NCBI GenBank assembly: GCA_021159235.1
Contig: JAGGSF010000080.1
Span: forward strand, 1 to 40,051
Source of the DNA: Deltaproteobacteria bacterium
Lineage (GTDB): Bacteria; Campylobacterota_A; Desulfurellia; JAGGSF01
Length of the DNA: 40,051 bases
Direction of reading: 5' to 3'
Positions 5,834-39,760 of this stretch are shown one piece after another. Each line of letters starts with the position of its first letter. Position 1 is the stretch's first letter. Below the pieces are notes generated by a model that searched no databases, was not told the origin of the DNA, and was given only the letters and a program-made list of their open reading frames with translations. The position numbers and the translations under genes were made by a program.

Positions 5834-5862
5834 TTGTATCAGCTGTGCTTTCATGATAGAAT
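5834..5862 (+). promoter_or_regulatory. xseA promoter, leaderless geometry
   Basis: TTGTAT (5834-5839) and TAGAAT (5857-5862) are 17 bp apart. Exactly 6 nt separate the -10 from the ATG at 5869, which places the transcription start on the start codon itself. No Shine-Dalgarno is present. Confidence 0.5.
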
Positions 5863-5868
5863 AAAAAT

Positions 5869-7062
5869 ATGAAGACGGTCTATTCTGTAACAGAGCTCAC
5901 CACACGTATAAAAGATCTTCTGGAAGAAAATTTCCGCAGGGTGTGGGTAGAGGGAGAAATAAACAATTTCAAACATCATTCCTCTGGACATATGTATTTT
6001 TCATTACAGGATGAAAAAAGCAGTATACGGGCGGTAATCTATAGGACTACAGCACAAAGGATAGGATTTTTGCCAAAGAATGGAATGAAGGTTGTTGCTA
6101 TGGGTAATATCGGTGTCTATCCTCCACGGGGTGAATATCAGCTCATCGTAGGGTACATTGAACCTGAAGGATTGGGAGCAAAACAACTTGCTTTTGAGGA
6201 GTTGAAGAAAGAATTAGAAAAAAAGGGTTATTTTGAACATAAAAAACCCATTCCTCCTTTTCCCAAGAAAATTATAGTGGTAACCTCTCCTACTGGTGCA
6301 GCTGTTAGAGACATTGTCAATATTATTTCACGAAGGGCAAGAGGTGTTGAGCTTTACATCTATCCGGTGCAGGTTCAGGGAGAAACAGCAAAATATGAGA
6401 TAATACAGGCTCTCAGCAAAATAAACACGGGTTTTATAGATGCAGATGTGGTGATTTTATCCCGAGGAGGGGGTTCGTGGGAAGATTTGTGGACATTCAA
6501 CGAAAGGGAGATAGCGGAAGCAATTCATGCCTGTCGTTATCCTTTAATCAGTGCTATAGGTCATGAGATAGATTTTACCATTGCAGATTTCGTTGCAGAC
6601 TTGCGTGCACCCACCCCTTCTGCTGCAGCAGAACTGGTTGTAAAGAACAGGTTTGAACTTTTGGAAAAGATAGATTTGATCAGGGATAGTATAAAAAACA
6701 ATGCTTTGAAGATGTTTGAAATGAGAAAGAGGGAATATGACCTTACCTGGGGAGAAAAGAACATACTTAGGTTTGTTTCCTCATTGCAGGATAGGATGAG
6801 GAAAGTTGATGATTTAGAGGAAAAAATAATTAGAGAAATAAACATTGTATATGAAAGAAAAAGGGAAAAACTTAAAGGACTAAAAGAGAAATTGTGTGCG
6901 CTTAACCCTGCCTCTATCTTAAGAAGGGGTTATTCTATAACCTATGATGAAAGTGGACGGATAATAAAAACTGTGAAAAGTATTATTCCTGAGTCTACAT
7001 TAAAGACACAGCTGCAAGATGGTGTTGTTAAGTCCAGGGTAGAGAAAATCTTTCTACAATAA
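5869..7062 (+). CDS. xseA: Exodeoxyribonuclease VII large subunit
   Basis: Catalytic subunit of exonuclease VII, which degrades single-stranded DNA from both ends in repair and recombination. The 397-residue protein has an N-terminal OB-fold for ssDNA binding (about 1-100, with VWVEGEINNFKHHSSGHMYF) and a central nuclease domain with PKKIIVVTSPTGAAVRDI and LSRGGGSWEDLWTFNE (about 198-212). These are followed by PLISAIGHEIDFTIADFVADLRAPTPSAAAE, read here as motif clusters at 225-234, 235-246 and 247-254, and a coiled-coil C-terminus. It is somewhat shorter than E. coli XseA, mainly in the coiled-coil part. No xseB small-subunit gene follows; the next gene is convergent and overlaps the 3' end by 35 bp. 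Confidence 0.93.
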   Translation: MKTVYSVTELTTRIKDLLEENFRRVWVEGEINNFKHHSSGHMYFSLQDEKSSIRAVIYRTTAQRIGFLPKNGMKVVAMGNIGVYPPRGEYQLIVGYIEPEGLGAKQLAFEELKKELEKKGYFEHKKPIPPFPKKIIVVTSPTGAAVRDIVNIISRRARGVELYIYPVQVQGETAKYEIIQALSKINTGFIDADVVILSRGGGSWEDLWTFNEREIAEAIHACRYPLISAIGHEIDFTIADFVADLRAPTPSAAAELVVKNRFELLEKIDLIRDSIKNNALKMFEMRKREYDLTWGEKNILRFVSSLQDRMRKVDDLEEKIIREINIVYERKREKLKGLKEKLCALNPASILRRGYSITYDESGRIIKTVKSIIPESTLKTQLQDGVVKSRVEKIFLQ

Positions 7063-7960
7063 TGCCTTCCCTTAAGCCTCCATCGGTGGAGATAATCTCA
7101 TCTTTCCTGTACAAATTCAGCAATTCCTCCAGGAATATGCATCCTGATACAATTACATCTTCCCTTCCTTTTTCTAATATAGGAAAATGATGCAGTCTTT
7201 CCTTTGCAGTTAATCTTACCATCTTCTCTCTTAATTTTTCTATCTCCTTTTTCCTTAGATGAAATCCTGTGGTTTTTTCCCAATCATATTCCTTGAGTTT
7301 TAAAGCAATGGCAGAAAGAGTGGTTACTGTTCCTGCATCACCAATGATATCTCTTATTGGATAGCTCAAGAAATCCTTTAATGATTCAGACAATGTATGT
7401 CCAATAAAATCCCTTAATTTGTCTAATTCTTTCTTTACTGGAGGATCATGTAATAAGAAGGATTCTGTGAGTTTTACCACTCCTTGAGGGATGCTTAAGA
7501 CATGTTTTATTCCTCTATCAAAGATGACGAATTCCGTGCTTCCACCGCCTAAATCAAAAAAGAGATTGGTGTTGTTCAGTTTATATTTCTCTTTGAGCAG
7601 AAATAGAGCACCCTTTGTAGTAAGTTCTGCTTCTTTCTTTCCGGTAATAATCTCTGGTGAAAAACCCATTTTCTTTACCTTTTTTAAGAAGACATCCCTG
7701 TTTTCTGCTTCTCTCAATGCACTGGTGGCTAAAAATGATACCTCTCGGACCTGAAATTCATCTATCTTTTTTTTGAATCCTTCAAGTGCAGATATTGTTC
7801 TTTCCATAGCTGAGACTTTAAGCAATTTCTGTTTAGATATACTCTCTCCTGTTCTGACCAATACATTTTGTGAAAAAAGGGGATATATTTTATTTTCCTT
7901 TACATCGGCGATGAGTATTCTCAGTGTATTTGTTCCCAGGTCTATGGACGCTATTCTCAT
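7028..7960 (-). CDS. Exopolyphosphatase / pppGpp phosphohydrolase, Ppx-GppA family
   Basis: A 310-residue member of the ASKHA-fold Ppx/GppA phosphatases, hydrolysing polyphosphate or pppGpp. The phosphate-binding loops are clear: SIDLGTNTLRILIADV (5-20) and FFDLGGGSTEFVIF (134-147). The probable catalytic Glu lies in ITGKKEAELT (near 110), and a GDAGTVTTLSAIAL stretch follows. Its length fits the short two-domain form without the HD-like C-terminal extension of E. coli Ppx. Its start overlaps the PiT stop by 4 bp and it is the last gene of the mrp-DUF47-pit-ppx unit, favouring a polyphosphate role. The last 35 bp overlap the 3' end of convergent xseA. Confidence 0.88.
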   Translation of the reverse strand: MRIASIDLGTNTLRILIADVKENKIYPLFSQNVLVRTGESISKQKLLKVSAMERTISALEGFKKKIDEFQVREVSFLATSALREAENRDVFLKKVKKMGFSPEIITGKKEAELTTKGALFLLKEKYKLNNTNLFFDLGGGSTEFVIFDRGIKHVLSIPQGVVKLTESFLLHDPPVKKELDKLRDFIGHTLSESLKDFLSYPIRDIIGDAGTVTTLSAIALKLKEYDWEKTTGFHLRKKEIEKLREKMVRLTAKERLHHFPILEKGREDVIVSGCIFLEELLNLYRKDEIISTDGGLREGIIVERFSLPWT

Positions 7961-9192: not shown

Positions 9193-9194
9193 AT

Positions 9195-9863: not shown

Positions 9864-9866
9864 TTT

Positions 9867-10889
9867 TTATAATGTTTCTAAGGTTTTCATCTCTTCTATA
9901 ATCTTTTTTGCTACATTCATAAAAGCTTTAGCTCCCAATGAATCAGGTTTGCCAACCACAATGGGTTTTCCTTCATCACTACCTGTTCTGATATCTACAT
10001 CAATGGGTATCTCTCCCAGGAATGGCAGGGAAAGCTGAATACTGAGTTTCTTTCCTCCACCATGGCTAAATATATCCACCCTCTTTCCACAATGAGGACA
10101 GATAAAGTAGCTCATATTCTCAATTACACCCAGTACAGGAATCTTGAGTTTTTTAAAGAAATCTACTGCTCTTGCAGCATCTGTTAAAGCTACATCCTGT
10201 GGTGTGGTGACAACGAGGCCGCCCGTTACCTTAGTCAGCTGAGCCATAGACAGCTGGGCATCACCTGTCCCTGGAGGAAAATCCACAACCAGAAAGTCTA
10301 AATCTCCCCAGCTAACATCTTCCAGGAATTGTTCTACCGTCTTATGAATTAATGGTCCTCTCCAGATAAGTGCTGTTCCCTTGGGAATAAGGTTGCCAAT
10401 AGAGAATACCTTAATACCCTCTTTTTCCACGGGTAGCATTTTATCTTTTTCTTCCTGGTTTAATCTTATAGCCTCTTCTTCTATACCCATCATCTTCGGT
10501 ACATTTGGCCCATAGATGTCTGTATCTAGAATGCCTACTCTTTGGCCTGATTTAGCCAGGGCCAGAGCAATATTCACACTTACCGTAGTCTTACCCACGC
10601 CACCTTTTCCCGAAGTCGTGCCGATGATGTGTTTTATCCGGGGAACAATATTCTTTTTTTCTATCTTTACATTGACCTTTTTTACACCCTCTATCTTTTC
10701 TAATGTCTGGATTATACTTGATCTCAGCTGTTGTGAGATTGCTTCATCTTCTATGCCTAAGGAGCCTTTTACTGTAACTTCTCCGTTTTCATTTATCTTC
10801 ACATCCTCTACTATGCCTAAACTTACAATATCTTTTGTGTGCTCAGGGAATTTAACCTTTTTTAATTCATTCATGATTCTTTCTTTCAT
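9867..10889 (-). CDS. Mrp/ApbC-family iron-sulfur carrier ATPase
   Basis: A cytoplasmic P-loop NTPase that binds and transfers a [4Fe-4S] cluster to apoproteins. The start is placed at 10889 (MKERIMNELKK) because AGGAGG lies 6 nt upstream; an upstream in-frame start would add 30 unlikely residues. The 340-residue protein has a DUF59/MIP18-like N-terminal domain (about 1-80), a deviant Walker A GTTSGKGGVGKTT (90-102), the DTDIYGPNVP switch (122-131), DFPPGTGDAQL (203-213) and the cluster-binding CPHC (Cys264, Cys267). It heads the unit containing DUF47, PiT and Ppx, an unusual setting for this family. Confidence 0.92.
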   Translation of the reverse strand: MKERIMNELKKVKFPEHTKDIVSLGIVEDVKINENGEVTVKGSLGIEDEAISQQLRSSIIQTLEKIEGVKKVNVKIEKKNIVPRIKHIIGTTSGKGGVGKTTVSVNIALALAKSGQRVGILDTDIYGPNVPKMMGIEEEAIRLNQEEKDKMLPVEKEGIKVFSIGNLIPKGTALIWRGPLIHKTVEQFLEDVSWGDLDFLVVDFPPGTGDAQLSMAQLTKVTGGLVVTTPQDVALTDAARAVDFFKKLKIPVLGVIENMSYFICPHCGKRVDIFSHGGGKKLSIQLSLPFLGEIPIDVDIRTGSDEGKPIVVGKPDSLGAKAFMNVAKKIIEEMKTLETL

Positions 10890-10914
10890 TTTGACCTCCT
10901 CAAAGATATTACAT

Positions 10915-10942
10915 AGATTATCACGATTTTTTTTTCTGTCAA
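10915..10942 (-). promoter_or_regulatory. Promoter of the mrp-DUF47-pit-ppx unit
   Basis: On the minus strand a perfect TTGACA (10937-10942) and TAATCT (10915-10920) are 16 bp apart, with an A-rich spacer. This gives a leader of about 20 nt carrying AGGAGG before the ATG at 10889. I saw no clear Pho-box repeat. Confidence 0.55.
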
Positions 10943-11046
10943 TTATTTGAATGCCCCCCATCAAAAATCTATATGACACAAATCAAAGATTTAAGCGTAA
11001 ACATCTCATTACAATTTATATGAAACAACAAGGTGTCGAAGGATTT

Positions 11047-11454: not shown

Positions 11455-11464
11455 GTAAAACTCC

Positions 11465-12664
11465 TTATTCTATTGGCCTTTCTTTGAGGTCTTTAAAGGT
11501 TATTCCTGCATCTACAGAAGGAAGCAAAAACACAGGTTCGGTCAATAAAAATTTTCCTCTTTTTATCCATTCCTTGAGTATTTGAGCAATCTCTCGGGCT
11601 TTAGCATAACTGGAAAGACCGGCTGCAGGAACCTTCTTTCCCCGAACGGTTATCATACCTGTTTTAAGTTCGGCATAGCTTACCTCACACAAAACCTCCG
11701 AGCTGCCCGAAGGATAACTCTTGGAATAGTCCACCACCGGTGCATATATCTCCTCATCACTTACCACTGTATACCTCAGTATTTCCTCATTGAGAATGGG
11801 AATGGGCACCCCTATCCCCACCGTCAGATCAGCTCCATACCCTGTTATACTTGTTCCCCTCAACCATTCAGGAGACATCTGCTTCAAGTCTCCCATCACC
11901 GCAAGTGTGCCTGAGGCAACCTTTGGGATACCCTCTTCTGTTCTGGGAACATTGGGGTTATGTTGAGTGCCATTCCAGACCACATAACCCACTCCACCCC
12001 CCAGGAATATCCTTGTTCCTATACCGATAGTCTTGTAATATGGATCGTTTAAAAGGGGTGAAAGCTGACCCGCGCTACAGTAATAGGCGTTCCCCAGATT
12101 GGGTTTCAACATCCCCATATAGGTATATATCACCTTATCGGAGAGGTTTACCGCTACCTCGTAGTTCTGAGTAGCATTTCGTGGATTAAATAAGATAGCT
12201 TCATTTAAATCCCTTATGTTAATCCAGGTTTCCAGTTTTTTTCTTGGATAACAGTCTGTTCCATAGGCAGTAGCTTGAAGTTTGATATCCTTGCCTGCCA
12301 CTAAGTCCTCGATTACATGTCCACCTCCATAGTTGAATCTGCCGGGATAGATTTTGTTTCTGGGGTCATCATCGGGAAGAGCGGTTGCACCGAGATATAT
12401 GTCTACAGCAGCGAGATCCGCACAGGCGGGAACACCATTAAGATATACCTTTTCTATCTTTATCCTGGGCTTTGAATGTCCAATATTAATCAAGACACCA
12501 GAAGAGCACATCGGCCCAAATGTTCCCGTAGTAACTACATCTACCTCCTGTGCGGCTTTTTTTATATCCTTTTCTTTTGCAATATCGATGATTTCCTCAG
12601 CCGTTACAACTACAGCTTTCCCCTTTTTTATTTTCTCATTGATCTCAGCAATCGTCTTTGCCAT
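11465..12664 (-). CDS. Homocysteine biosynthesis protein, DUF39 (COG1900)
   Basis: A 399-residue DUF39 protein, the core of the anaerobic sulfide-dependent route from aspartate semialdehyde to homocysteine. It starts MAKTIAEINEKI after an AGGAGAAGG site. Recognisable parts are TTGTFGPMCSSGVLINIGHS near 46-65, where a Cys (about 53) is the likely reactive residue. A Gly-rich NYGGGHVIEDLVAG stretch, IFLGGGVGYVVWNGTQHNPN and TSITGYGADLTVGIGVPIP follow. This version lacks the C-terminal CBS domains found in some homologues, consistent with its length. It is first in the unit with the NIL-ferredoxin. The product would feed the methionine cycle represented by metK and ahcY at 29-31 kb. Confidence 0.9.
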   Translation of the reverse strand: MAKTIAEINEKIKKGKAVVVTAEEIIDIAKEKDIKKAAQEVDVVTTGTFGPMCSSGVLINIGHSKPRIKIEKVYLNGVPACADLAAVDIYLGATALPDDDPRNKIYPGRFNYGGGHVIEDLVAGKDIKLQATAYGTDCYPRKKLETWINIRDLNEAILFNPRNATQNYEVAVNLSDKVIYTYMGMLKPNLGNAYYCSAGQLSPLLNDPYYKTIGIGTRIFLGGGVGYVVWNGTQHNPNVPRTEEGIPKVASGTLAVMGDLKQMSPEWLRGTSITGYGADLTVGIGVPIPILNEEILRYTVVSDEEIYAPVVDYSKSYPSGSSEVLCEVSYAELKTGMITVRGKKVPAAGLSSYAKAREIAQILKEWIKRGKFLLTEPVFLLPSVDAGITFKDLKERPIE

Positions 12665-12731
12665 TTAAACCTTCTCCTTTCTTCTCAGCCCTCTAACTAA
12701 ACCTTGCAGAACCATTGATTACAATTGTTTA

Positions 12732-12761
12732 TCTATACATCCTTAGCCGAATTTTTGTCAA
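12732..12761 (-). promoter_or_regulatory. Promoter of the homocysteine genes
   Basis: On the minus strand TTGACA (12756-12761) and TATAGA (12732-12737) are 18 bp apart, giving a leader of roughly 60 nt. The leader holds a short ACAATTGT palindrome but is too short and unstructured to my eye for a SAM riboswitch. Confidence 0.5.
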
Positions 12762-12815
12762 GTTTTACATTCGCTTTAGTAGGTGTATTTCTGGCAGTGG
12801 CTAAATTCAGTATAC

Positions 12816-12843
12816 TTGTCAAACAAAAAAATTATGATAATAT
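12816..12843 (+). promoter_or_regulatory. Promoter of the DUF4912-GH57-lptD-ubiX unit, leaderless geometry
   Basis: TTGTCA (12816-12821) and TAATAT (12838-12843) are 16 bp apart. Exactly 6 nt separate the -10 from the ATG at 12850, so transcription should begin at the start codon. No Shine-Dalgarno is present. Confidence 0.5.
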
Positions 12844-12849
12844 GAAAAC

Positions 12850-13314
12850 ATGGAAGAGGAAGCAAAAAGGGTAAAGTTTTACAAAGCTCAGGTCTGGGGG
12901 CAGATAGAGGAAAAATCCATCCCCTCCAGATATATGAAAAACAGGATTATTCTCTTGTCGGTTGATCCCTATCATCTATTTACATCCTGGGAAGTGATGG
13001 AAAAACCGCCTTTTATAATCAGAGTATTTGATTTTACCCGCAGGTTTTTTCCGCAGTACAATGAAGTCTTTTCATTTAAAGTAGAAAGTGATGTAGGAAA
13101 CTGGTATATGAATGGAAAACCCTCGGCTGTCTATCTTGCTCAGATAGGTAAGGTAAAAGAGGGGAAATTTATCCTGATTGCTCAATCAAACATTGTTCAG
13201 ATGCCCAATGGCTCTGTATCCACCAGCAGGATATGTATGGAGATGAGAAAGATAAGGATAGAGGAAAAAAAGATACTTAAAGAGGAAAAAATGGAACACG
13301 CTTATGAAAGATGA
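12850..13314 (+). CDS. DUF4912 domain protein
   Basis: A 154-residue cytoplasmic protein with a DUF4912 domain at about 28-130. It is recognisable by IILLSVDPYHLFTSWEV, the central FDFT and the closing AQIGKVKEGKFILIAQSN, which resemble a small beta-sandwich carbohydrate-binding fold. DUF4912 proteins are commonly encoded next to GH57 (DUF1957) branching enzymes, as here, where the two genes overlap by 11 bp. A role in binding or positioning alpha-glucan for the branching enzyme is an inference. The charged tail after about residue 135 looks unstructured. Confidence 0.8.
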   Translation: MEEEAKRVKFYKAQVWGQIEEKSIPSRYMKNRIILLSVDPYHLFTSWEVMEKPPFIIRVFDFTRRFFPQYNEVFSFKVESDVGNWYMNGKPSAVYLAQIGKVKEGKFILIAQSNIVQMPNGSVSTSRICMEMRKIRIEEKKILKEEKMEHAYER

Positions 13315-14890
13315 CTTGGGTTTTTTAAATCTGGTTTTGCATGCCCACCTTCCTTATGTTCGCCATCCTGAATTTGATGATTTTCTGGAGGAGGATTGGT
13401 TTTACGAGGCATTGTGGGAAACATATATTCCATTTATAGATATGCTGGAAAGATTATGTTATGAAGATGTGGACTTTAGTATAACACTCAGTCTGTCTCC
13501 TACCCTGTGTTCTATGATGGAAGATGAACTGTTAACAGAGAGATTTTTAAGAAAAATGGAAAATTTGAAAGGGCTTATCTTTAAGGAGAAAGAGAGACTG
13601 AAGAACACTGCGTTTGAAAAATCTGTAGGAATGTATGAGAAGAGGATGAAAAAGATAGAAGAGATAATTTCACGCTACAATCCTGTTACGAAAGCATTTA
13701 AAAGATTTTTTGAAGAAAAAAAACTGAATCTCATCACAACATCTGCTACCCATATCTTTATGCCGCATCTGCGATATGCAGGAAAAGCAAACGAAGCACA
13801 GATAAAAATAGGAATTGAGTATTTAAAAACTGTATTCGGTAGAAGACCGAAGGGCTTTTGGCTACCTGAATGTGGATATTACAGGGGTGTGGAAGATATA
13901 CTGGAGAAGGAAGGTGTGGAGTATTTCTTTGGGGAAACACACTGCATCATGTATGCAGACCACTATCCAAAGAGGGGTGTCTACGCACCGATGTTTACAG
14001 AAAACGGTGTTGCTTGCTTTGCAAGGGATACAGAATCTTCCAGGCAGGTGTGGAGTGCAAGGGAAGGTTATCCTGGAGATTTTGATTACAGGGAATTCTA
14101 CAGAGATGTAGGATTTGATGCTCCTTATGATTACATAAGACCCTACTTGCATAAAGATGGTGTAAGGGGAAACACGGGATTGAAATATTACAGAATCACG
14201 GGCAGTAATGTAGATTTAGGAAAGAAAGAACCATACGATCCTGAAGCTGCCAGAAAAAAGACGATCATCCATGCAGAAGACTTTTTATTCAATAGGCAGA
14301 AGCAGATGAAATATTTAAATACCATTTATAACAGAAAGCCCATCATAAATGCATTCTACGATATGGAGTTGTTTGGTCATTGGTGGTGGGAAGGGATAGA
14401 CTTCTTAGAGGAGGTAATAAGAAAAATAGAGAGATTCAACATAAAACTTATAACGCCGGATGAGTATTTGGATGTGTATCCTGAAAATCAGGTAAGCAGG
14501 TTGAATGAATCCAGCTGGGGATGGAAGGGATATGGAGAGACATGGTTAAACGGAACAAACGATTGGATATACAGACATCTGTACGAAATGGAAGACAGAA
14601 TGGAAGAGATGGCAAAAAAATACAAGGACACAAAAGATAAGAGAATATTATTTATACTGTCTCAGATGGCAAGAGAACTGCTGTTAGCTCAATCCTCCGA
14701 TTGGTTATTTATCATGCATGAAGGCAGTTGCCGCCAGTATGCAGAAAGAAGAGAAAAACTGCATATAAACAGGTTCAATCACATGTATGAAAACCTGAAG
14801 AAAAACTTCATAGATGTGGAATTTGCTGAAGAGAGTTATAAAAAAGACAATATCTTTCCAGCCTTGAACTGGAAGGTCTATGCATGTTAA
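13304..14890 (+). CDS. GH57 1,4-alpha-glucan branching enzyme (DUF1957 type)
   Basis: Forms alpha-1,6 branches in glycogen-like glucans by cleaving and transferring alpha-1,4 chains. The 528-residue protein starts FLNLVLHAHLPYVRHPE, the first GH57 conserved region. The probable nucleophile Glu189 lies in FWLPECGYY and the acid/base Asp353 in FYDMELFGHWWWEG. The C-terminal helical DUF1957 domain includes ESSWGWKGYGETWLNG and QMARELLLAQSSDWLF. Both catalytic residues match characterised GH57 branching enzymes. It overlaps the DUF4912 gene upstream and lptD downstream. I see no glycogen synthase (GlgA) or GlgC in the window. Confidence 0.92.
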   Translation: MKDDLGFLNLVLHAHLPYVRHPEFDDFLEEDWFYEALWETYIPFIDMLERLCYEDVDFSITLSLSPTLCSMMEDELLTERFLRKMENLKGLIFKEKERLKNTAFEKSVGMYEKRMKKIEEIISRYNPVTKAFKRFFEEKKLNLITTSATHIFMPHLRYAGKANEAQIKIGIEYLKTVFGRRPKGFWLPECGYYRGVEDILEKEGVEYFFGETHCIMYADHYPKRGVYAPMFTENGVACFARDTESSRQVWSAREGYPGDFDYREFYRDVGFDAPYDYIRPYLHKDGVRGNTGLKYYRITGSNVDLGKKEPYDPEAARKKTIIHAEDFLFNRQKQMKYLNTIYNRKPIINAFYDMELFGHWWWEGIDFLEEVIRKIERFNIKLITPDEYLDVYPENQVSRLNESSWGWKGYGETWLNGTNDWIYRHLYEMEDRMEEMAKKYKDTKDKRILFILSQMARELLLAQSSDWLFIMHEGSCRQYAERREKLHINRFNHMYENLKKNFIDVEFAEESYKKDNIFPALNWKVYAC

Positions 14891-16959
14891 AAATAGGAAT
14901 AATCTTTTTATTCCTTGTTTTCTCTTCTTATTCCTTTGCACAGGAAATTCACATTGAAGCAGATAACATCACCTATTACGAAAAACAAAAACTCTATATT
15001 GGAGAGGGGCATTGTGTTGTTAAAAGAGAAGATGCAACATTAAAAGCGGACAAAATAGATCTTAACAAGGAAACAGGCATCACCCATGTTAAAGGCAATG
15101 TAGAATTTCATTCAGGTGACGATTGGATAAAAGGGAAAAAAGGCACAGTAAATGTAAATCTGTGGAAAGGGTTTATTGAAGATGCTACCTTATTTCTCTC
15201 CAGAGATTTTTTATGGATAAAGGCAAAAAAGATTGTTATTTTAGATAAAACACGCTTCTACGCAGAAAATAGTGCGCTTACCTCCTGCTTTTGTGAAAAC
15301 TGGTTGAAGGGGAAGGGTGCTCATCCCAAATGGACCTTTCATGCCAGAAAAGCTTATGTAGTAAGAGATAAATATCTAAAGGCTTATCCCTTGATTTTTA
15401 AAACAAGAGGCGTGCCTGTGTTTGGACTGCCATATATATATCGTAATTTAAACAGAAAGAGGAGAACAGGATTCTTAACCCCTTCTTTTGGGTATTCCTC
15501 CCGGGGAGGATTTAAATATAGGCAACCATTTTTTCTGGTTTTATCCGATTCTCAAGATGCTACTTTCACATATAATCATGCAGGAAGAAAGGGCAATGGA
15601 GTGGATGTAGAATATAGATATTTCTGGACTAAAGATAGTTTTGGTCAGTGGCATGCTACGTTTTTCAAGGAGAAAAAACCGTATGGGGCAAGTGATAAAA
15701 AATCTCTCCGTTACAATGTGCATGTCAAGCATACTCAGGATTTAGAAAAATACGGTATCATCAGATCCGATATAAATCATTTGAGTGATAGAAATAACTA
15801 TCACGTATTTAAAGATGATGAGCTTTCTTTGACCAGTGAAAGGTATGTAACCAGCAAGTTGTGGTGGGAATGGCACAAGGGTGAATATAAACTGTCCATA
15901 AACAATTATTATTATGAGGATCTACTTTCAGAAAACAACAAAAGGACACTGCAGAAATATCCACAGTTTGAGGCTTCAATAACGGAAAAAAAGATACCAT
16001 CCACGCCATTTTATCTGAATACCTCAACCTACTTAACAAGAAATTACAGGAAAGAAGGAGAAAAAGGATGGGTGTATTCATTGTACCCCTCTTTAAAAGC
16101 ACCTTTTTCCATTTATCAGTTCAGCTTTTTGCCGGAGGGAAAACTGTATTATGATTACAGCTGGTGGAAAGATGAAAATGGCGAAAGACACCATAAGGGA
16201 AGAACAATCCCCGAGGGTATATTCACCGTAAGCGCCACGCTGGAAAGAATATGGTTCACAAATAAAGAGAGCACAGAAGGTATAAGACACAGAATCATTC
16301 CTCAAATCTCCTACGATTATATTCCTTACAGAGACCAGAGTGAACTGCCCGATTTTATATCCCGCAAGAGCAAGGAAAATGTATTAACCTTTAGTCTGGA
16401 AAACAGGATCACACAGAAAAAAAGCGGTAGATATTTTGATCCTCTATATGTGAAATTTTCTCAACCCTTTAACATAAACAAAAAACGCCTTCATCAGAAT
16501 CCATTTGAACCATTCTATATAGAAGGTGTATATAAGCCTACAGATACATTTTCCTTTGACTGGAAAGCCTATTATTCTACGAGAAAAGGTCTTTTTACAC
16601 AGAGCAGCGAAAATGCGCACCTGAATGTGGGCATCTTGAAGTTTTCCACCGGCTATGTGATGAACAGGGATTCCGGTTACCTGTTGAGCGATGAGTCGTG
16701 GAGTGGAAGACTGGACATATATCCACAATCAGGGTTGAATATTTTCTATTCATTTGAAAAAAATTTAAGATATGGATACTTCCCTCAGAAACGGTTCGGC
16801 ATAAACTACATGGAGGACTGCTGGGGCATAAGCCTGCAAACATATATAAATGAAACGATGGAAGAAAATAGAGAAGGTATTAAAGAGAGAAAGAAAAATA
16901 TGGGTATATGGTTTATGTTCACTTTGAAGTCCATCGGCTCGTGGGGTAAAAGGGTATGA
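14884..16959 (+). CDS. lptD: LPS-assembly outer membrane protein LptD
   Basis: Outer-membrane beta-barrel that inserts lipopolysaccharide into the outer leaflet. The 691-residue protein starts with a signal peptide (hydrophobic 4-17, cleavage likely after SFAQ). A periplasmic OstA/LptA-like beta-jellyroll follows (about 22-150, EADNITYYEKQKLYIGEGH at 22-40 and repeated KGNVEF-type strands). The large barrel then runs from about 170 to the end, with aromatic-rich alternating strands. The junction LPYIYRNLNRKRRTGFLTPSFG is the family's conserved plug-to-barrel segment (read as two pieces). Two Cys in SCFCENW (about 135-137) may serve in folding. It overlaps the GH57 gene by 7 bp and ubiX by 4 bp. 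Its presence shows a diderm envelope with LPS; LptE is not seen. Confidence 0.9.
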   Translation: MLKIGIIFLFLVFSSYSFAQEIHIEADNITYYEKQKLYIGEGHCVVKREDATLKADKIDLNKETGITHVKGNVEFHSGDDWIKGKKGTVNVNLWKGFIEDATLFLSRDFLWIKAKKIVILDKTRFYAENSALTSCFCENWLKGKGAHPKWTFHARKAYVVRDKYLKAYPLIFKTRGVPVFGLPYIYRNLNRKRRTGFLTPSFGYSSRGGFKYRQPFFLVLSDSQDATFTYNHAGRKGNGVDVEYRYFWTKDSFGQWHATFFKEKKPYGASDKKSLRYNVHVKHTQDLEKYGIIRSDINHLSDRNNYHVFKDDELSLTSERYVTSKLWWEWHKGEYKLSINNYYYEDLLSENNKRTLQKYPQFEASITEKKIPSTPFYLNTSTYLTRNYRKEGEKGWVYSLYPSLKAPFSIYQFSFLPEGKLYYDYSWWKDENGERHHKGRTIPEGIFTVSATLERIWFTNKESTEGIRHRIIPQISYDYIPYRDQSELPDFISRKSKENVLTFSLENRITQKKSGRYFDPLYVKFSQPFNINKKRLHQNPFEPFYIEGVYKPTDTFSFDWKAYYSTRKGLFTQSSENAHLNVGILKFSTGYVMNRDSGYLLSDESWSGRLDIYPQSGLNIFYSFEKNLRYGYFPQKRFGINYMEDCWGISLQTYINETMEENREGIKERKKNMGIWFMFTLKSIGSWGKRV

Positions 16960-17942: not shown

Positions 17943-17978
17943 TACCATATACCTCCCATTTATAAAATATCATTAAAC

Positions 17979-25378: not shown

Positions 25379-25380
25379 TT

Positions 25381-26019
25381 TTAGTTTTCCTTGCAGATGA
25401 TAGAGATTATCTTTTCTCTCAATCCTTCCAGTGTGTATGTGTAAGGATCTAAATGGGAAATTTCTGCGGCGATTCTGTCTTTGCCTAAGTCTCTTAGCCA
25501 TCTGGAAAAGTCGTTGTCCACCTTTCCCAACCTTATCCGGGCCTCAAAGATGTGAAAGTAAAGAGAACTCTTTGATATCTTCCTCAAGATTTCTTTAAAC
25601 TCTTTTAGGTTATGAGCAATATAAGGTGTGGGTAAGATAAATGTTTTGCAAGCCATGAAGTGAAATTCACTGCCTTCGGTACAATTTCTAACCGGTCTGT
25701 TTTTGTCTATGTGCTCTTCTAAGATTTCAATGAACCTATTTCTCAACTCTCTTATGCTTGGAAAGTCGACTATATCTACACTGCCGATTTCTTCTCCCAG
25801 GGTTTTTTCCTCCAGTACATCGCTGATCCAGTAGGCAAAATCATTGGCTGGTTCCGGTAGTAGATAATGGTGCTGTTCCAGGAACTTATGGGTGTGATAA
25901 AAGATGGAGGAATCAGGGACAACCTTTATTCCCTCCAGAAGTTCTATCACATTTTTAGATTTCTTGTTTAAAATTTCTACCAGGTTAAATTGGGTATGAA
26001 AGTAAAATGGTTCAGCCAT
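25381..26019 (-). CDS. DUF5752-like protein of unknown function in the trehalose operon
   Basis: A 212-residue soluble protein. The start is placed at 26019 (MAEPFYFHTQFNLVEIL), overlapping nothing but only 1 bp after the otsA stop, with GGAAG 9 nt upstream. It appears to match DUF5752, an uncharacterised family I associate with trehalose and sugar-nucleotide gene neighbourhoods. Visible features are an aromatic N-terminal FYFHTQF, the SSIFYHTHKFLEQHHYLLPEPANDFAYW region (around 48-75) dense in His and aromatics, KTFILPTPYIAHNL, SSLYFHIFEARIRL and a helical C-terminus. No catalytic motif is known to me. Tight packing between otsA and treT suggests it acts with them, perhaps as a partner or regulator. 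Confidence 0.6.
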   Translation of the reverse strand: MAEPFYFHTQFNLVEILNKKSKNVIELLEGIKVVPDSSIFYHTHKFLEQHHYLLPEPANDFAYWISDVLEEKTLGEEIGSVDIVDFPSIRELRNRFIEILEEHIDKNRPVRNCTEGSEFHFMACKTFILPTPYIAHNLKEFKEILRKISKSSLYFHIFEARIRLGKVDNDFSRWLRDLGKDRIAAEISHLDPYTYTLEGLREKIISIICKEN

Positions 26020-26020
26020 T

Positions 26021-27539: not shown

Positions 27540-28913
27540 CTATCTCAGTGCATGTTGTTCGATAAATGTTTTCACTTTCTTAATGGAAGCATCGATAACG
27601 GTAAATCTCTCTTTCTTTTTCTCTATATCTTGTAGAGAAGGTGGTATGGGTGGAAACATACCTATACTTTCTTTTACAGGTTTTTGAAATTTTGCAGGAT
27701 GGGCGGTAGCTAAACAGATTAGTGGTTTTTCCTTATCTCTAAGTTTTCTTCCCACCCTCACTCCAACTGCAGTATGAGGATCGAGAATGTATCCCGTTTC
27801 TCTGTAAAAGTCTCTTATCTCTTCTATTGTTTCAGTTTCTGAAGCCTTTGCAGAGAGGAAATCTACTTGAACTGTTTGTAACCTCTGTTTGTCTATCTTT
27901 ATCTCTCCATATTTAGAAAATGTGTCCATCAGTTGTCTTACTTTTTCACCGTCTTCATCAAACAGGTAATACAGGTAACGCTCAAAATTGCTGGCTATCT
28001 GTATATCCATGGAGGGGCTTATGGTATTTACAACCTTGCCCTTTTTGTAGATGCCCGTGTTTACGAATTTTGACAGTATATCATTTTCATTCGTAGCGAG
28101 GATGAGTTTGTCTATATTGAGCCCCATTCTTTTGGCTATAAAACCAGCAAAGATATTACCGAAATTGCCCGTGGGAACACTGAAGTAAACAGAACCTTCA
28201 GTGGAAATCTGAAAATAGGCGTAAAAATAGTAGATGATTTGAGCTAAAATGCGCGTCCAGTTTATGGAATTTACTGCTCCCAACATGTATTTTTTCTTAA
28301 ACTCACTGTCGGAGAATATCTTTTTTACAATGTACTGGCAGTCATCAAATGAACCCTTTATAGCAATACAGAATACATTTTTGTCTTTTACCGTAGTCAT
28401 CTGTTTTTGCTGGATGGGACTGACCTTTCCATAGGGGTAAAGGATGAATATATTCATATTCTTCTTACCCTTAATTCCTTCTATGGCTGCACTGCCTGTA
28501 TCACCGGATGTAGCTCCCAGTATATTCATCTTTTTCCCCTCTTCCTGCAAAATGTATTCAAATAGATTACCCAGAAATTGGAGGGCGATATCTTTAAAAG
28601 CAAGTGTTGGTCCATGGAATAGTTCTGCAATATATATACCGGCTTTTTTTACCACCGGCACAATCTTCTCCGTATCAAAAGAAGAATAACTCTTCTGAAT
28701 AAGTCTCCATAGTGTGTTTTCCTCTATCTCATCGCCGATATACATCTTCATTAGATAAAGTGCCAGCTCTTTAAAATTGAGCGAAGAAAGGTTCTCTTCA
28801 ACAACGGGGATATACTGAGGAACGAGTAAACCACCATCATCAGCAAGCCCCATCTTCACTGCTTGTATGAATGAGATATTCTTTACTTTGCTCCTTGTGC
28901 TTTTGTAAAGCAT
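27540..28913 (-). CDS. thrC: Threonine synthase
   Basis: PLP enzyme converting O-phosphohomoserine to threonine. The 457-residue protein has the long-form N-terminal domain (MLYKSTRSKVKNISFIQAV) and the cofactor-lysine motif HGPTLAFKDIALQF with Lys107. GATSGDTGSAAIEGIKG is the phosphate-binding site, and ILYPYGKVSPIQQKQMTT and GNFGNIFAGFIAKRMGL complete the fold. Its ATG has no Shine-Dalgarno but sits 5 nt after a -10 hexamer, a leaderless geometry. otsA follows by 1 bp, so threonine synthesis and trehalose synthesis appear to share a transcript, a pairing I do not recognise as standard. Confidence 0.94.
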   Translation of the reverse strand: MLYKSTRSKVKNISFIQAVKMGLADDGGLLVPQYIPVVEENLSSLNFKELALYLMKMYIGDEIEENTLWRLIQKSYSSFDTEKIVPVVKKAGIYIAELFHGPTLAFKDIALQFLGNLFEYILQEEGKKMNILGATSGDTGSAAIEGIKGKKNMNIFILYPYGKVSPIQQKQMTTVKDKNVFCIAIKGSFDDCQYIVKKIFSDSEFKKKYMLGAVNSINWTRILAQIIYYFYAYFQISTEGSVYFSVPTGNFGNIFAGFIAKRMGLNIDKLILATNENDILSKFVNTGIYKKGKVVNTISPSMDIQIASNFERYLYYLFDEDGEKVRQLMDTFSKYGEIKIDKQRLQTVQVDFLSAKASETETIEEIRDFYRETGYILDPHTAVGVRVGRKLRDKEKPLICLATAHPAKFQKPVKESIGMFPPIPPSLQDIEKKKERFTVIDASIKKVKTFIEQHALR

Positions 28914-28918
28914 ACTAT

Positions 28919-28947
28919 AAATTAGTGGGAACGTAGTTTAAAGTCAA
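28919..28947 (-). promoter_or_regulatory. thrC-trehalose operon promoter, leaderless geometry
   Basis: On the minus strand TTGACT (28942-28947) and TAATTT (28919-28924) are 17 bp apart, and only 5 nt separate the -10 from the ATG. It lies back to back with the tRNA-Leu/metK promoter, the two -35 boxes being 8 bp apart. Confidence 0.5.
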
Positions 28948-29079: not shown

Positions 29080-29109
29080 TTTATTTTTATCAGGCAAGAG
29101 GAGAAAAGG

Positions 29110-32274: not shown

Positions 32275-32302
32275 TTGCTTTTTTTCGCACTTTGTGTATA
32301 CT
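32275..32302 (+). promoter_or_regulatory. Promoter of the glutaredoxin-paaK-ACT unit
   Basis: TTGCTT (32275-32280) and TATACT (32297-32302) are 16 bp apart. The leader of about 33 nt carries TGGAGG 7 nt before the ATG at 32342. Confidence 0.5.
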
Positions 32303-32341
32303 TATGCGTGCGTGTTTAAGAGGTGAAATGGAGGTTTTGAA

Positions 32342-33882: not shown

Positions 33883-33891
33883 GAGAATGCC

Positions 33892-34323: not shown

Positions 34324-34325
34324 GG

Positions 34326-37238
34326 TTAAAATAAATGCAAGGGAAAGGTTAAGGTTCTCTTTATCACGTTTAACATGCCTTTGCTCAAGGAGGTTATGGG
34401 AACGGGATAAGCTGTCATCTTGCCTTCGATTTTACCTTTCACACGGAATGATAAACCGGTAAAGCTCTTCTCTTTCCCGCCTATAATCCATCCTAAGACA
34501 GGAATAGAGGAGATGATTCTATTTATAGTTCTAAATGTAGTGAAGGTAACAATACCATTTATATATTTGTCTGAAAGTCTGTAATCTCCTGCGAAAAATA
34601 TATCCAGTTCTTTCCCCCTTATTATCAATGGATTTTCATCTTCTATACTGAGTAAACCATTATTCAACTTTATACTGGCAAAAATCTCCTTATAAACCAG
34701 TCCTTCTTTTATCTGTGGGAAATTTAGAGTAAGAAACTCGGCAATGTTTGTTACGCTAAATACTTTATACAGTGCAGGAAAATGCTTTATCTCTCCTTTT
34801 TTTGCCTCAATATTTATCTCTCCTTCTACATTGTTTAAATTGATTTCTCTACTTGTTTTTACATACCCTCTTCCCTGAACATATTCCGTTTCCACAGAGG
34901 AGGCAAAGAGTTGCCTGAATAAAGTATTGTCTCTAAAGGCAAAGCGAATAATGGGCTGTTTTTCAAGATTTACAGTGCAAACAAAGAGAAAATAAGGAGC
35001 AAAGGAACGAATATAGAGTGTACTTTCTTCAAAGTTCACATTCGCACATACATCTTTCATTGTGGCTGTCATCTCTTCATTTTCAAACCTTAACCTTTTA
35101 ATGGCAACATTCACATAGAATGAAACATTTTCAGGAATAGAGGGAAGAATAATTTTTCTCTTTTTATCAGAAAACAGCAGAAAATTGTCTGTTTTTACAT
35201 CACCCAGAAAAACATAATGCTTGTTTCTTTTTTTTCCATCCACCGAAAATGTCAACTTGTTGCCTTCGTATACCATCTTGCCTTCGGGAATATATATATG
35301 ATTTTTTTGCGAATACACGGTGAATGAAGCATCATCTATACCCCATTCTGTCTTTAATTTCTCCACATCTAATTTTCCCTCTATCTGAGGATACAGATTT
35401 ATAGAACCAGAAATTAAAGCGGACTTTACTGGAAACTGATACTGGATGAGCTTTTGCAGAGAAGCAGGGTTGAAACGATTGAACGTTAAATGACAGAAGA
35501 CAGGCTCAAATTCTCTGGACAGTTTCATTTCTCCTTCCATCTGCCCGGATTTGTCCCTTACAATGAAATGCTCGATATTGGTATAATTTTCAGTATGCTT
35601 GCCACAAACAGAAACGAGGAGGCCATCTTCAGTGGTAAATTTTACAGTAAAAGAATATCTCTTGAAGTCTCCCTCAACTGTAAGATCCCCTGAAAGGGCA
35701 GTATCTATGTTGAGATATTGGGGAAAATACCGCTTTGATAAGATGTTGCTGTCTTTTTGGTTCAACTTTGCCTTAGCCTTAATGAAAAATCTTTCTTCAG
35801 GAAACACCATTGATGCATGGTCTATAAAAATCTTAGAGCTGTATATACCGCAATTACCTTTATCAACCAGTACAGAAATGGTTGAAGGCGGGATTCTTTT
35901 TATCTCCCAGTTTCCATCTGTATATTTGATATAAGGGAAATTTTTACTTTTTACAGAGGTATTCTTTAAGTTTAGTTTTACATCGTAGGGAAAGTAGGGA
36001 TGAGAGTGCCACTGATAATTCTTTAAAGAAACAACAGAAAGAACATATCCTTTGAATTCTACATCTCCAGCCCTTGATAGGATATCATCTGGAACAACAA
36101 CAAATTTAAGAAAATCTATTGCTTTCTTATCTATTTGTCCCTCAAGTTTTAAAAGCATATCGCAGGGGTAATACTTTTTTCTATGTATGATGAGTTTAGA
36201 GCCCTTTTTCACCTCTATTTTGCTAAATTTTCCCTTTTTTACATCAACAGTTAATTTCCCCGGGGTTATATCTATATTTGCAGATACATTTCTGAAGAAA
36301 TCCGTATGTTCCTCTACCCTGAAAGAGAGACTGTTCACCGCCATCTTTCCTGTTTTAACTACATTCGGAGAATCTGTTTTACCTTTCAGGTGAAGTTTAT
36401 CTATCTTTATACTGTAAGATAAAAGGTAATTCTCATAAACCTCAGGCAATTCAGGACTTATATATGAAACAATGGGATCTATCTCTTTCTTTTCTATAAA
36501 CGGTGTAGATACATCAAGAGAAACAGATTTTTCTTTAAAGTTTACATTCCCCCTTATCTTATATCCGTTCTCGGATGAAAGGTAAATATCCTTCAACGAT
36601 TTCTCATCTATATCTGCCTTAGCCTTTAAACCTTCAAGAGAAAGCGAAATCCACTTCAGATAACGAGCAGAAAGAATGATTTTTCCGTGAGAAAAGTCAG
36701 TCTGACCCCGATAGTAAAACTCAGCATCATCTACCTTTATATTTTCTCCCCAAACAGAGCCTGAAAAGTAAAATTTTATTCTTTCCCCTAAGTGGGCTTT
36801 TACTCTTCCACAGGCATCAATCTTTCTTATTTCATCCCTTACCGAGACATGTTCAACAACTATATTTAAAAGATAGGGAATCTCTAATCTTCCTTTTTTT
36901 ACTTTTTTTGTTATATTTACATTCGCTTTTTCTATATGAACACTGCTTACAAATTTCTTTCCCGAGATAACCGACAAAACTGCTTGAAAGGGAGAAATCC
37001 TGCTTTCTATGTGTTCAGCGGTAATACTATCTACAGACAACCTTCTTATAGCAATAACAAGATATGGAAAATGGGAAGAACATCTTACATCTTCCAATTT
37101 TATGTTTTTTGAAACCGCCTTTTCTTTAATCAATTTTTCCGCATAATTGGGTAAGAAAAACTGCCAGCTCAGAAATCCAGCTAAAATCAGAACAGTTAGA
37201 ACAAAAATAACAATCCTTAGGAACTTAAACTTACGCAT
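34326..37238 (-). CDS. AsmA-like / YhdP-type envelope protein
   Basis: A 970-residue protein anchored by one N-terminal helix (about 7-27) with the rest in the periplasm. It is rich in repeating short beta strands, as expected for the AsmA/TamB/YhdP group of bridge-like proteins implicated in moving lipids between the two membranes. The C-terminus looks like the AsmA-like domain: GEINIEAKKGEIKHF, INGIVTFTTFRTINRIISSIPVLGWIIGG (its first part) and TGLSFRVKGKIEGKMTAYPV. Homology is judged from architecture and the C-terminal pattern, not from a strict motif. The ATG lacks a Shine-Dalgarno and is overlapped by a hairpin-forming inverted repeat. Confidence 0.78.
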   Translation of the reverse strand: MRKFKFLRIVIFVLTVLILAGFLSWQFFLPNYAEKLIKEKAVSKNIKLEDVRCSSHFPYLVIAIRRLSVDSITAEHIESRISPFQAVLSVISGKKFVSSVHIEKANVNITKKVKKGRLEIPYLLNIVVEHVSVRDEIRKIDACGRVKAHLGERIKFYFSGSVWGENIKVDDAEFYYRGQTDFSHGKIILSARYLKWISLSLEGLKAKADIDEKSLKDIYLSSENGYKIRGNVNFKEKSVSLDVSTPFIEKKEIDPIVSYISPELPEVYENYLLSYSIKIDKLHLKGKTDSPNVVKTGKMAVNSLSFRVEEHTDFFRNVSANIDITPGKLTVDVKKGKFSKIEVKKGSKLIIHRKKYYPCDMLLKLEGQIDKKAIDFLKFVVVPDDILSRAGDVEFKGYVLSVVSLKNYQWHSHPYFPYDVKLNLKNTSVKSKNFPYIKYTDGNWEIKRIPPSTISVLVDKGNCGIYSSKIFIDHASMVFPEERFFIKAKAKLNQKDSNILSKRYFPQYLNIDTALSGDLTVEGDFKRYSFTVKFTTEDGLLVSVCGKHTENYTNIEHFIVRDKSGQMEGEMKLSREFEPVFCHLTFNRFNPASLQKLIQYQFPVKSALISGSINLYPQIEGKLDVEKLKTEWGIDDASFTVYSQKNHIYIPEGKMVYEGNKLTFSVDGKKRNKHYVFLGDVKTDNFLLFSDKKRKIILPSIPENVSFYVNVAIKRLRFENEEMTATMKDVCANVNFEESTLYIRSFAPYFLFVCTVNLEKQPIIRFAFRDNTLFRQLFASSVETEYVQGRGYVKTSREINLNNVEGEINIEAKKGEIKHFPALYKVFSVTNIAEFLTLNFPQIKEGLVYKEIFASIKLNNGLLSIEDENPLIIRGKELDIFFAGDYRLSDKYINGIVTFTTFRTINRIISSIPVLGWIIGGKEKSFTGLSFRVKGKIEGKMTAYPVPITSLSKGMLNVIKRTLTFPLHLF

Positions 37239-37274
37239 GCATTATATACTAATGCACTTATATCCAGTTTACAA
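37238..37274 (-). promoter_or_regulatory. asmA-like gene promoter with inverted repeat at the start codon
   Basis: On the minus strand TTGTAA (37269-37274) and TAGTAT (37246-37251) are 17 bp apart, with 7 nt from -10 to ATG. A perfect 7-bp inverted repeat (TGCATTA 37238-37244, 5 nt, TAATGCA 37250-37256) covers the -10 and reaches the start codon; it could be an operator. Confidence 0.45.
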
Positions 37275-38762
37275 TGTTTTCTTCAGTAAAAACAAAAGGG
37301 GTAAAAGACCGAGAAAAATAAGAGAATTAATGAAAAAAGCATCATTGTAGGCAAGCATGGAGGATTGTTTTCCCAGTTCCTGATAGATAAGGTAATGTGC
37401 CTGATGTGTAGAGAGGTGCAGAAGATGAGATATTTTGTCTGTAGCTTGATGAAAAACTATGTTGGCAGGATTAAATTGTTCTGAAAGACGAAAATGATGA
37501 AATTGTGTTCTGTGAGAAAAGATGTTGCTGACAAAGGCAACACCAAAACTTCCACCCAAACTGCGCAAAAAATTGAATATTGCGGTGGCATTACCCATAA
37601 CCTCTCTCTTTATCCCCATAAATGTAACTACGGCTAAAGGAGTAAAGAAGAAAGCGAGACCTGCTCCCTGAATAATTCGGGGATAAACTATACTCCAGAA
37701 ATCTGCATATAGATTAAAATGCGCCATAAGGTTTAAGGCATGAGCATTTAAAATGATGGCAACAGCTAAAAGGATGCGGCAATCTATTTTTCTGGTAAGA
37801 AGTCCCACCATGGGCAAAAGGATGATTTCAGCTATACCTGCCGGACCTAAGACCAACCCTGCCCAGAGTGCGGTATAGTTCATAAGTTTCTGCACATACA
37901 TGGGAAGGAGAACAACACTGCCAAAAAAGGCAAAAAATCCTGAAAATGCAATCAAACAACCCGAACTATAGGAGAGCTCTTTAAATATTTTTAAATTGAC
38001 AATAGGCTGTTTTACCTTCAACTCATTTATAATAAATCCCGCAAAAAAGATAACGGAGACAACGAGGAGACAAACAATTAAAGAGGAACTGAACCAGTCT
38101 TTGATCTCTCCTCTATCCAGCATTATCTGCAAACAGGTTACACCTATTATCATAAAGATAAATCCTGACCAGTCTATTTTTGTTATATGTTGGCGAATAT
38201 AGGGAGGATCAAAGATAAACAGAGATATGAGGATGATGCTAATGATGCATACAGGTATGTTGATATAGAATATCCAGGGCCATCCCCAGTTATCCGTAAT
38301 CCATCCCCCTAAGATAGGACCGACGATAGGAGCAACTACAATACCCATACTGAATATGGCCATTGCCATACCGTATTCCTTCTTGGGAAATGACTCCAAC
38401 AGAATAGACTGAGAGAGTGGCTGCATTCCTCCACCCCCTAAACCTTGCAGTGTTCTAAATAGAACCAGTAGGGTTAAGCTTTTAGACATGCCGCAGGCCA
38501 GAGAACTGATGGCAAAAAGCGAAACCGAAAAGAGAAGATAATTCTTACGGCCAAAGACATTGGACAACCAACCAGCAGATAAAATGGTGATGGCAGTGGC
38601 TACAATGTATAAAGTGAGAACCCATGTAACCTCATTCAAACTAACATTTAAAGAACCCTGAATATGCGGCAGTGAGACATTCACCACCGTAGAATCCATG
38701 ATCATCATGAATGTGGGCAACATAACGGTGATGGTTACAAGCCATTTGTTTACCTGTTTCAT
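37269..38762 (-). CDS. emrB: EmrB-type multidrug exporter, MFS DHA2 family
   Basis: Inner-membrane proton antiporter with about 14 transmembrane helices, 497 residues. It shows the DHA2 start [19 protein letters not shown], the loop motif WLSNVFGRKNYLLFS and FRTLQGLGGGGMQPLSQSIL. The antiporter motif C region GIVVAPIVGPILGGWITDNWGWPWIF (as GPILGGWITDNWGW) is also present. It overlaps the preceding membrane-fusion gene by 4 bp, the standard emrA-emrB order. The substrate is not predictable, and no TolC-like outer-membrane channel is in the window. Confidence 0.92.
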   Translation of the reverse strand: MKQVNKWLVTITVMLPTFMMIMDSTVVNVSLPHIQGSLNVSLNEVTWVLTLYIVATAITILSAGWLSNVFGRKNYLLFSVSLFAISSLACGMSKSLTLLVLFRTLQGLGGGGMQPLSQSILLESFPKKEYGMAMAIFSMGIVVAPIVGPILGGWITDNWGWPWIFYINIPVCIISIILISLFIFDPPYIRQHITKIDWSGFIFMIIGVTCLQIMLDRGEIKDWFSSSLIVCLLVVSVIFFAGFIINELKVKQPIVNLKIFKELSYSSGCLIAFSGFFAFFGSVVLLPMYVQKLMNYTALWAGLVLGPAGIAEIILLPMVGLLTRKIDCRILLAVAIILNAHALNLMAHFNLYADFWSIVYPRIIQGAGLAFFFTPLAVVTFMGIKREVMGNATAIFNFLRSLGGSFGVAFVSNIFSHRTQFHHFRLSEQFNPANIVFHQATDKISHLLHLSTHQAHYLIYQELGKQSSMLAYNDAFFINSLIFLGLLPLLFLLKKTL

Positions 38763-39724
38763 TTTGAAAGAATAGTCACCTTAGCGGACATGCCTATCCT
38801 CAAAGGAGGGACATCTTCACAGAAAACAATCTTTACCGGCACCCTCTGCACAACCTTTATCCAATTTCCGGAAGCATTTTCTGGAGGAAAGAGGGAAAAT
38901 GCTGCTCCTGTTCCTGCCATAATGCTTTCTACATAACCATGAAATCTCTTTTTGGGATAAGCATCTATTTTTATTATTGCCTTTAAGCCTTTTTTTATGT
39001 GATGAAGTTTTGTTTCCTTGTAATTTGCCTCTATCCATACCTCCTTTGTGTTTACCAGAGAAAGAAGAGGCACTCCTGTTTTAACATAGTTTCCCACCTC
39101 CACACCCTTTTTAACTACAAACCCGTCTGCCGGTGCATAAATACGGGTATAATCTTTATTCAGCAATGCCTCATTCAGTTCTGCTCTTTTCTGTTTGATT
39201 AGACTTTTTTGAACGGCAAAGAGGGCTTTTTTCTGATTCAAGGTTTCTTTGACAAAACTGTATTCTGCCTGTGCTATTTTAAATCTGGTAAGCATATGTT
39301 CATAATTTTGTTTAGATAAGGCATCTCTCTGATAGAGATTCCTTGCCCTTTTCCAATCCCATTGAGTTTGTTCAAGTTTTGCCTTCTTTAAGGTAAGCTG
39401 AGCTAAGGTTGCATCTATCTCTTTTTTTATTTCGTTCAATCGTTTCTCTTCTAAATTCAACGATGCCTCTTTTTCTTTTACCTTTATTTCGAACGGCTTT
39501 CTATCCAGAACAATGAGCAGTTCGCCTTTTTTCACCCATTGATTTTCTTCCACCAATACTTCTTTTACCACTCCACTTACCCTTGAGCTGATCCAGTGAA
39601 TGTGTCCATGAACATAGGCATTAGTTGTAGAAATGTGTGTTTTTTTGTAATGCAAACCATAGATTAAACCAAGGACTACAAACAGCAAGAAGACAACAGC
39701 AAAGGGAATCTTCTTTTTCTTCAT
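38759..39724 (-). CDS. emrA: EmrA-type membrane fusion protein (HlyD family)
   Basis: Periplasmic adaptor linking the EmrB pump to an outer-membrane channel. The 321-residue protein has an N-terminal anchor (about 6-24), the lipoyl half-motif VSGVVKEVLVEENQWVKKG (about 49-67), and a long alpha hairpin (about 77-185) with heptad-like Lys/Leu/Glu. The second lipoyl half IYAPADGFVVKKGVEVGNYV and beta barrel ITKIDAYP-type strands follow. Its ATG has no Shine-Dalgarno but stands 7 nt after a -10, with a near-consensus TTGACG -35, so the mRNA is probably leaderless. It is first in the emrAB operon. Confidence 0.92.
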   Translation of the reverse strand: MKKKKIPFAVVFLLFVVLGLIYGLHYKKTHISTTNAYVHGHIHWISSRVSGVVKEVLVEENQWVKKGELLIVLDRKPFEIKVKEKEASLNLEEKRLNEIKKEIDATLAQLTLKKAKLEQTQWDWKRARNLYQRDALSKQNYEHMLTRFKIAQAEYSFVKETLNQKKALFAVQKSLIKQKRAELNEALLNKDYTRIYAPADGFVVKKGVEVGNYVKTGVPLLSLVNTKEVWIEANYKETKLHHIKKGLKAIIKIDAYPKKRFHGYVESIMAGTGAAFSLFPPENASGNWIKVVQRVPVKIVFCEDVPPLRIGMSAKVTILSK

Positions 39725-39731
39725 TTACATA

Positions 39732-39760
39732 TACATAACAAACTCAAACAGCTTCGTCAA
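39732..39760 (-). promoter_or_regulatory. emrAB promoter, leaderless geometry
   Basis: On the minus strand TTGACG (39755-39760) and TATGTA (39732-39737) are 17 bp apart. Seven nt separate the -10 from the emrA ATG and none of them resembles a Shine-Dalgarno. Confidence 0.55.

Follow-up and report, generated by a model that had tools for sequence, protein, structure and literature searches.

Do the genes of this locus whose promoters run up to the start codon give leaderless mRNAs? The window, i.e., the whole 40,051-nt stretch analysed here (positions 1 to 40,051 of contig JAGGSF010000080.1, assembly GCA_021159235.1, Deltaproteobacteria bacterium), was described in an original prediction as holding five or six transcription units that open with a gene lacking a Shine-Dalgarno (SD) sequence, with a -10 hexamer ending 5–7 nt before the ATG and a -35 hexamer 16–17 bp further up. 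It is contig C1 of a draft genome of 1.127 Mb in 122 contigs, rated 100% complete, with a GC content of 39%, and the organism is a diderm, with an LptD homologue at 14884–16959. Our genome-wide analysis makes it very probable that about 24% of the unit-first genes in this genome are expressed as leaderless mRNAs beside SD-led ones, through a -10 element set against the ATG.

All six promoter-to-ATG geometries were found in the sequence where they had been described, and SD scores are well below 0 upstream of all six genes. On the forward strand, the xseA promoter (5834–5868) comprises TTGTAT (5834–5839), a 17-bp spacer, and TAGAAT (5857–5862), followed by 6 nt and the ATG at 5869. The predicted leaderless gene (5869–7062) encodes the exonuclease VII large subunit (Pfam PF02601, 1.8e-83), with an OB domain beginning at residue 5 and a leaderless posterior of 0.91 in the mixture model described below. 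Divergent from xseA, with 79 bp between them, pgmB (5136–5789, reverse strand; posterior 0.79) encodes a beta-phosphoglucomutase (beta-PGM)-family HAD hydrolase (TIGR02009 above cut-off) behind TATTAT (5802–5797) and a 7-nt gap to the ATG (element at 5790–5802). The DUF4912 promoter (12816–12849, forward strand; TTGTCA 12816–12821, 16 bp, TAATAT 12838–12843, 6-nt gap) precedes a predicted leaderless gene at 12850–13314 (PF16258; posterior 0.92). The remaining three cases lie on the reverse strand. The promoter of thrC (28914–28947; TTGACT 28947–28942, 17 bp, TAATTT 28924–28919, 5-nt gap) stands before a predicted leaderless threonine synthase gene (27540–28913; Pfam Thr_synth_N from residue 3; posterior 0.78). 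A promoter-like block at 37239–37274 (TTGTAA 37274–37269, 17 bp, TAGTAT 37251–37246, 7-nt gap) precedes the gene for a large AsmA/YhdP-like protein (34326–37238; PF13116 below cut-off), the third in an emrA-emrB-asmA-like run, and another at 39725–39760 (TTGACG 39760–39755, 17 bp, TATGTA 39737–39732, 7-nt gap) precedes emrA, which encodes an EmrA-like periplasmic adaptor (38759–39724; TIGR00998 subfamily match below cut-off). The proposed identities of XseA, the beta-PGM-family HAD hydrolase, DUF4912, threonine synthase, and EmrA held, whereas the asmA-like product has only a sub-threshold YhdP match. A GTG at 24161 in the window also scores well as a leaderless start; this codon overlaps the 3' end of the preceding gene, and the match was taken as chance.

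The comparison of -10-to-ATG distances with shuffled upstream regions, which the original prediction had proposed, gave a sharp peak. Our genome-wide statistics cover 990 kb of the 1.13-Mb genome, taken as stretches, in which a fifth-order Markov model called 973–974 genes, with starts picked without looking upstream. TANNNT starting at -13 or -12 precedes 35 of the 159 SD-less first genes (unit-first genes without GGAG/GAGG), while dinucleotide shuffles of the same regions (n = 500) gave 9.8 ± 3.0 with a maximum of 20. None of the 64 SD-led first genes carries the element at these positions, and operon-internal genes show no excess of it there. When genes were picked only for TANNNT at -14 to -11, leaving the -35 region unselected, similarity to TTGACA rose only at spacers of 16 and 17 bp (mean matches 2.5 and 3.1 versus ~1.6). 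Since this -35 emerges unselected and a scan in which an E. coli-type promoter matrix was kept fixed found 21 full promoters with the -10 at -14 to -11 against 1.7 expected, the element of the leaderless class is best read as a sigma70-type promoter. The same scan of E. coli K-12 found 0, a rough control of 250 kb with starts from the same home-made caller. Counting TTGA/TTGAC-spacer-TANNNT-gap-ATG in the raw genome without gene calls gave a weak excess (64 at gaps of 6–8 versus ~40), and the same count in the relatives gave no usable excess.

These data bear directly on whether the geometry arose by chance, as a genome with 39% GC is rich in AT and would yield -10-like hexamers near many ATGs. 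For individual genes the concern is real: against 213 control intergenic ATGs from the same regions, each of the six window cases falls within the top 2–4%, so that 2–4% of the control ATGs match any one of them. Chance does not account for a peak at two positions only that is absent from SD-led and operon-internal genes and far above the shuffles, nor for a -35 that appears independently at the expected spacing or the conserved blocks beside unconserved flanks described below. As an explanation of the whole pattern, chance is extremely improbable; it is refuted at the genome level and remains for individual genes such as emrA.

The size of the leaderless class was estimated with a mixture model of three parts, i.e., leaderless promoter, SD, and neither. 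The leaderless share is 23.8% (95% interval 17.8–30.4) among the 228 first genes, rises to 37.7% in the subset of 132 that are divergently placed, and is 0.0% for the 595 operon-internal genes, compared with 0.9% in shuffles, an average of 2.7% when the model is shifted 5–32 nt upstream, and 0 for E. coli passed through the same pipeline. The mode therefore appears confined to the first genes of units. The asmA-like gene would be an exception: emrB, on the same strand, ends 30 bp before it, and the emrB stop codon overlaps the proposed -35, so the claim that all six cases open transcription units fails for this gene. The 30 bp that separate emrB from the asmA-like gene are identical in the congener G023 and nearly so in G024, and may represent an internal promoter or a conserved element of another kind. 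A leaderless posterior above 0.5 was obtained for 47 genes (~5% of 974 called genes), and this predicted set includes dnaA, dnaJ, tsaE, argF, nadK, ychF, and a family-B DNA polymerase gene. Joint leaderless use in divergent pairs was considered and dropped, as a hand count gave 7 of 66 pairs versus ~9 if the two genes were independent. A+T richness downstream of the start made no distinction (0.650 for leaderless and 0.634 for SD genes). Among the genes with a predicted leaderless promoter, L017:2526-3494 encodes a fusion of a Y1 (IS200-like) transposase domain with the C-terminal helix-turn-helix of DnaA, and L078:3304-5715 encodes the bacterial family-B DNA polymerase.

If the promoters were real but the called starts lay too far upstream, translation could begin further along the reading frame, at a codon preceded by its own SD. 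Our caller ignored upstream signals and overextends some starts, as for mrp, which leaves some room for this explanation. Only 5 of the 47 predicted leaderless genes have, within 40 codons, an in-frame start preceded by an SD, versus 15 of 64 SD-led first genes and 135 of 595 internal genes. In addition, conserved domains (DnaA_N, DnaJ, OTCace_N, Thr_synth_N, and tRNA_anti_2) start 2–13 residues past many predicted leaderless ATGs, and an in-frame stop lies within 15 codons upstream of 41 of the 47 starts. The proteins of the two congeners, i.e., the same-genus genomes G023 and G024, align from residue 1, and within the first 20 codons of DUF4912 third codon positions vary most between the congeners. 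Translation from downstream codons is thus very improbable, and the called start codons of the leaderless class are most likely the true protein N-termini.

Conservation in the congeners, compared via two loci plus pattern matches, extends over the promoter block in most of the window cases: five of the six genes keep the block up to the ATG in both genomes, and pgmB keeps it in one. For DUF4912, the block from TTGTCA to the ATG is identical at 33 of 34 positions in both congeners, while the 41 bases above it match at 10–11 of 41, which is near random. The xseA block ends exactly at the ortholog ATG in G023 and G024, with TAAAAT as the -10. The thrC block keeps TTGACT in both, with TAACTT as the -10 and a 6-nt gap, a shift of one base. 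At emrA, TTGACG-17-TATGTG-7-ATG stands at the ortholog ATG in both genomes. The asmA-like block is identical in G023 (39/39), and its hexamers and ATG are unchanged in G024; the pgmB block is identical in G023 (30/30) and has no match in G024 within 3 mismatches.

Several points weigh against the leaderless reading. No single window case is decisive on its own; each is suggestive, and the strength of the case comes from recurrence, genome-wide statistics, and conservation. The emrA -10 (TATGTA) is off consensus in lacking the final T, and the pgmB -35 is poor. Two of the six cases are weaker than originally presented, namely emrA and the asmA-like gene, which is not unit-first. Leaders of 1–5 nt are indistinguishable from none by sequence, and the home-made caller overextends some starts. 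Finally, one third of the first genes fit neither the leaderless nor the SD class in the mixture model. This last point favors a different account, in which transcription comes from other promoters further upstream and the AT-rich block serves as a non-SD translation aid, either an unstructured leader or a Kozak-like signal; some SD-less leadered genes probably do exist. An aid of this kind would need no TTGACA 16–17 bp above it and would not be missing from operon-internal SD-less genes, and we consider it a very improbable explanation for the class as a whole.

Leaderless expression is the reading that best fits the position-specific peak, the unselected -35, the absence of the peak from SD-led and internal genes, the congener footprints, and the N-termini, and these together support the proposal that leaderless and SD-led units would stand side by side. 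SDs are common in this genome, where 42% of internal genes are preceded by GGAG/GAGG and the mixture model puts the figure at 68%, so it does not have the genome-wide SD scarcity that marks Bacteroidetes-type initiation on non-SD leaders. The anti-SD CCTCC is intact in the 16S of the phylum relative G007; the genome's own 16S is missing from the assembly. In the window, SD leaders were confirmed upstream of the ATGs of padR, metK, and mrp. On the reverse strand, mrp (10889–10942) has TTGACA (10942–10937), 16 bp, TAATCT (10920–10915), and the SD GAGGAGG (10901–10895), with its true start at ATG 10889 and a leader of ~19 nt. GAGGAG precedes the metK ATG at 29110 (29096–29109, forward strand), and GGGAGG precedes the padR ATG at 17948 (17949–17960, reverse strand).

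A -10 at -12 to -7 relative to the A of the ATG is the standard sigma70 register for a transcription start on that A, and ribosomes can bind leaderless mRNA at its 5'-terminal AUG through the 70S route. In the mechanism that we propose, a housekeeping-sigma promoter with its -10 at -12 to -7 or -13 to -8, counted from the A of the start codon, would begin transcription on this A or a few bases from it, as judged from the register. The resulting mRNA would have neither leader nor SD, and ribosomes would recognise its 5'-terminal AUG directly, assuming the binding mode known from other bacteria. Mostly, this mode would serve genes that point away from a divergently transcribed neighbour, and it would coexist with conventional SD-led leaders.

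The leaderless share varies among more distant relatives, for each of which 400 kb was analysed: 16.9% in G001, 13.0% in G007, and 4.8% in G022, where the interval includes 0. Their genomes are 1.7–1.8 Mb in size versus 1.1 Mb here. Counterparts of two window genes in relatives have SD-like sequences: thrC orthologs carry AAGGAGAG in G001 and GGTGGGAAA in several genomes of family f3, and the DUF4912 homologues of G001 and G003 carry AGGAGGG. Individual genes thus appear to change their mode of initiation among relatives. It is conceivable, although we hold it at slightly less than an even chance, that this uncultured diderm lineage has leaderless initiation as a second mode throughout the phylum, most used in the small-genome family (24%, against 17%, 13%, and 5% in the relatives), with dnaA, dnaJ, nadK, and argF among the core genes that rely on it, and that thrC and DUF4912 have changed between SD-led and leaderless initiation inside the phylum. 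Small pools of Dehalococcoidia and Omnitrophota gave a leaderless share of 4%, with intervals reaching 0. The pooled Omnitrophota loci hold 3 full promoters in the leaderless register versus 0.3 expected, a weak hint of the mode.

Other genes of the window are of separate interest. A methanogenesis-marker-16-like protein (11465–12664, reverse strand; TIGR03287 below cut-off) shares 68–76% identity with homologues in many unrelated phyla, a degree of conservation above that of the other genes in the genome. Its best hits carry the name Candidatus Aerophobetes, with near-equal hits in several phyla; placing the lineage in Aerophobetes was considered and rejected, as Aerophobetes DNA gave no close counterpart within the window's phylum and other genes point to no named group. 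A GH65-type phosphorylase with beta-PGM (2812–5789, reverse strand) and a TreT-like plus OtsA-like pair (24158–27538, reverse strand) suggest the metabolism of trehalose or a related disaccharide by two routes.

Leaderless initiation is already well described in bacteria, diderms included, and this lineage adds one more case; we found no earlier description of leaderless expression for it. Of the 953 bacterial genomes of Zheng et al. (2011), 207 carry the TA-led signal, with diderm phyla among them (PMC3160421), and a 2021 summary places 21.6% of bacterial species in the leaderless transcription class (PMC9581028). The suggestion that such use would be notable in a diderm was thus overstated, since Deinococcus-Thermus, Aquificae, Spirochaetes, and Proteobacteria were already listed with leaderless genes (PMC3160421). 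As in the TA-led genes of that study, TANNNT here has its first T ~12 nt before the start and no SD, the motif is read as a sigma70 -10 giving leaderless mRNA, and SD-led genes occur in the same genome; unlike them, the class here carries a clear -35 at 16–17 bp and makes up ~5% of genes versus 20–40% in Actinobacteria and Deinococcus-Thermus (PMC3160421). This low share arises because most genes here sit inside operons, and the 24% of unit-first genes in our own mixture model lies within the range of the GeneMarkS-2 leaderless class (PMC9581028). Deinococcus-Thermus, also diderm, shows the same -10-to-ORF (open reading frame) placement; its promoter role was shown by experiment, while ours is predicted from sequence, and the -10 there can act alone, with an added -35 raising expression, whereas a -35 is usually present here (PMC12340547). 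Mycobacterium tuberculosis likewise has two initiation modes in one cell and leaderless starts with TANNNT, but it is a high-GC actinobacterium with mapped starts, in contrast to predictions in a genome of 39% GC (PMC3898074).

Because gene finders built around an SD place starts wrongly in such genomes, annotating the starts and promoters of this lineage calls for a leaderless model. The spread from 24% to ~5% within the phylum, together with genes that seem to switch mode, may offer a system for studying how a promoter and a start codon fuse or separate. A further diderm lineage with substantial leaderless use would argue against tying this mode to Actinobacteria-like cells.
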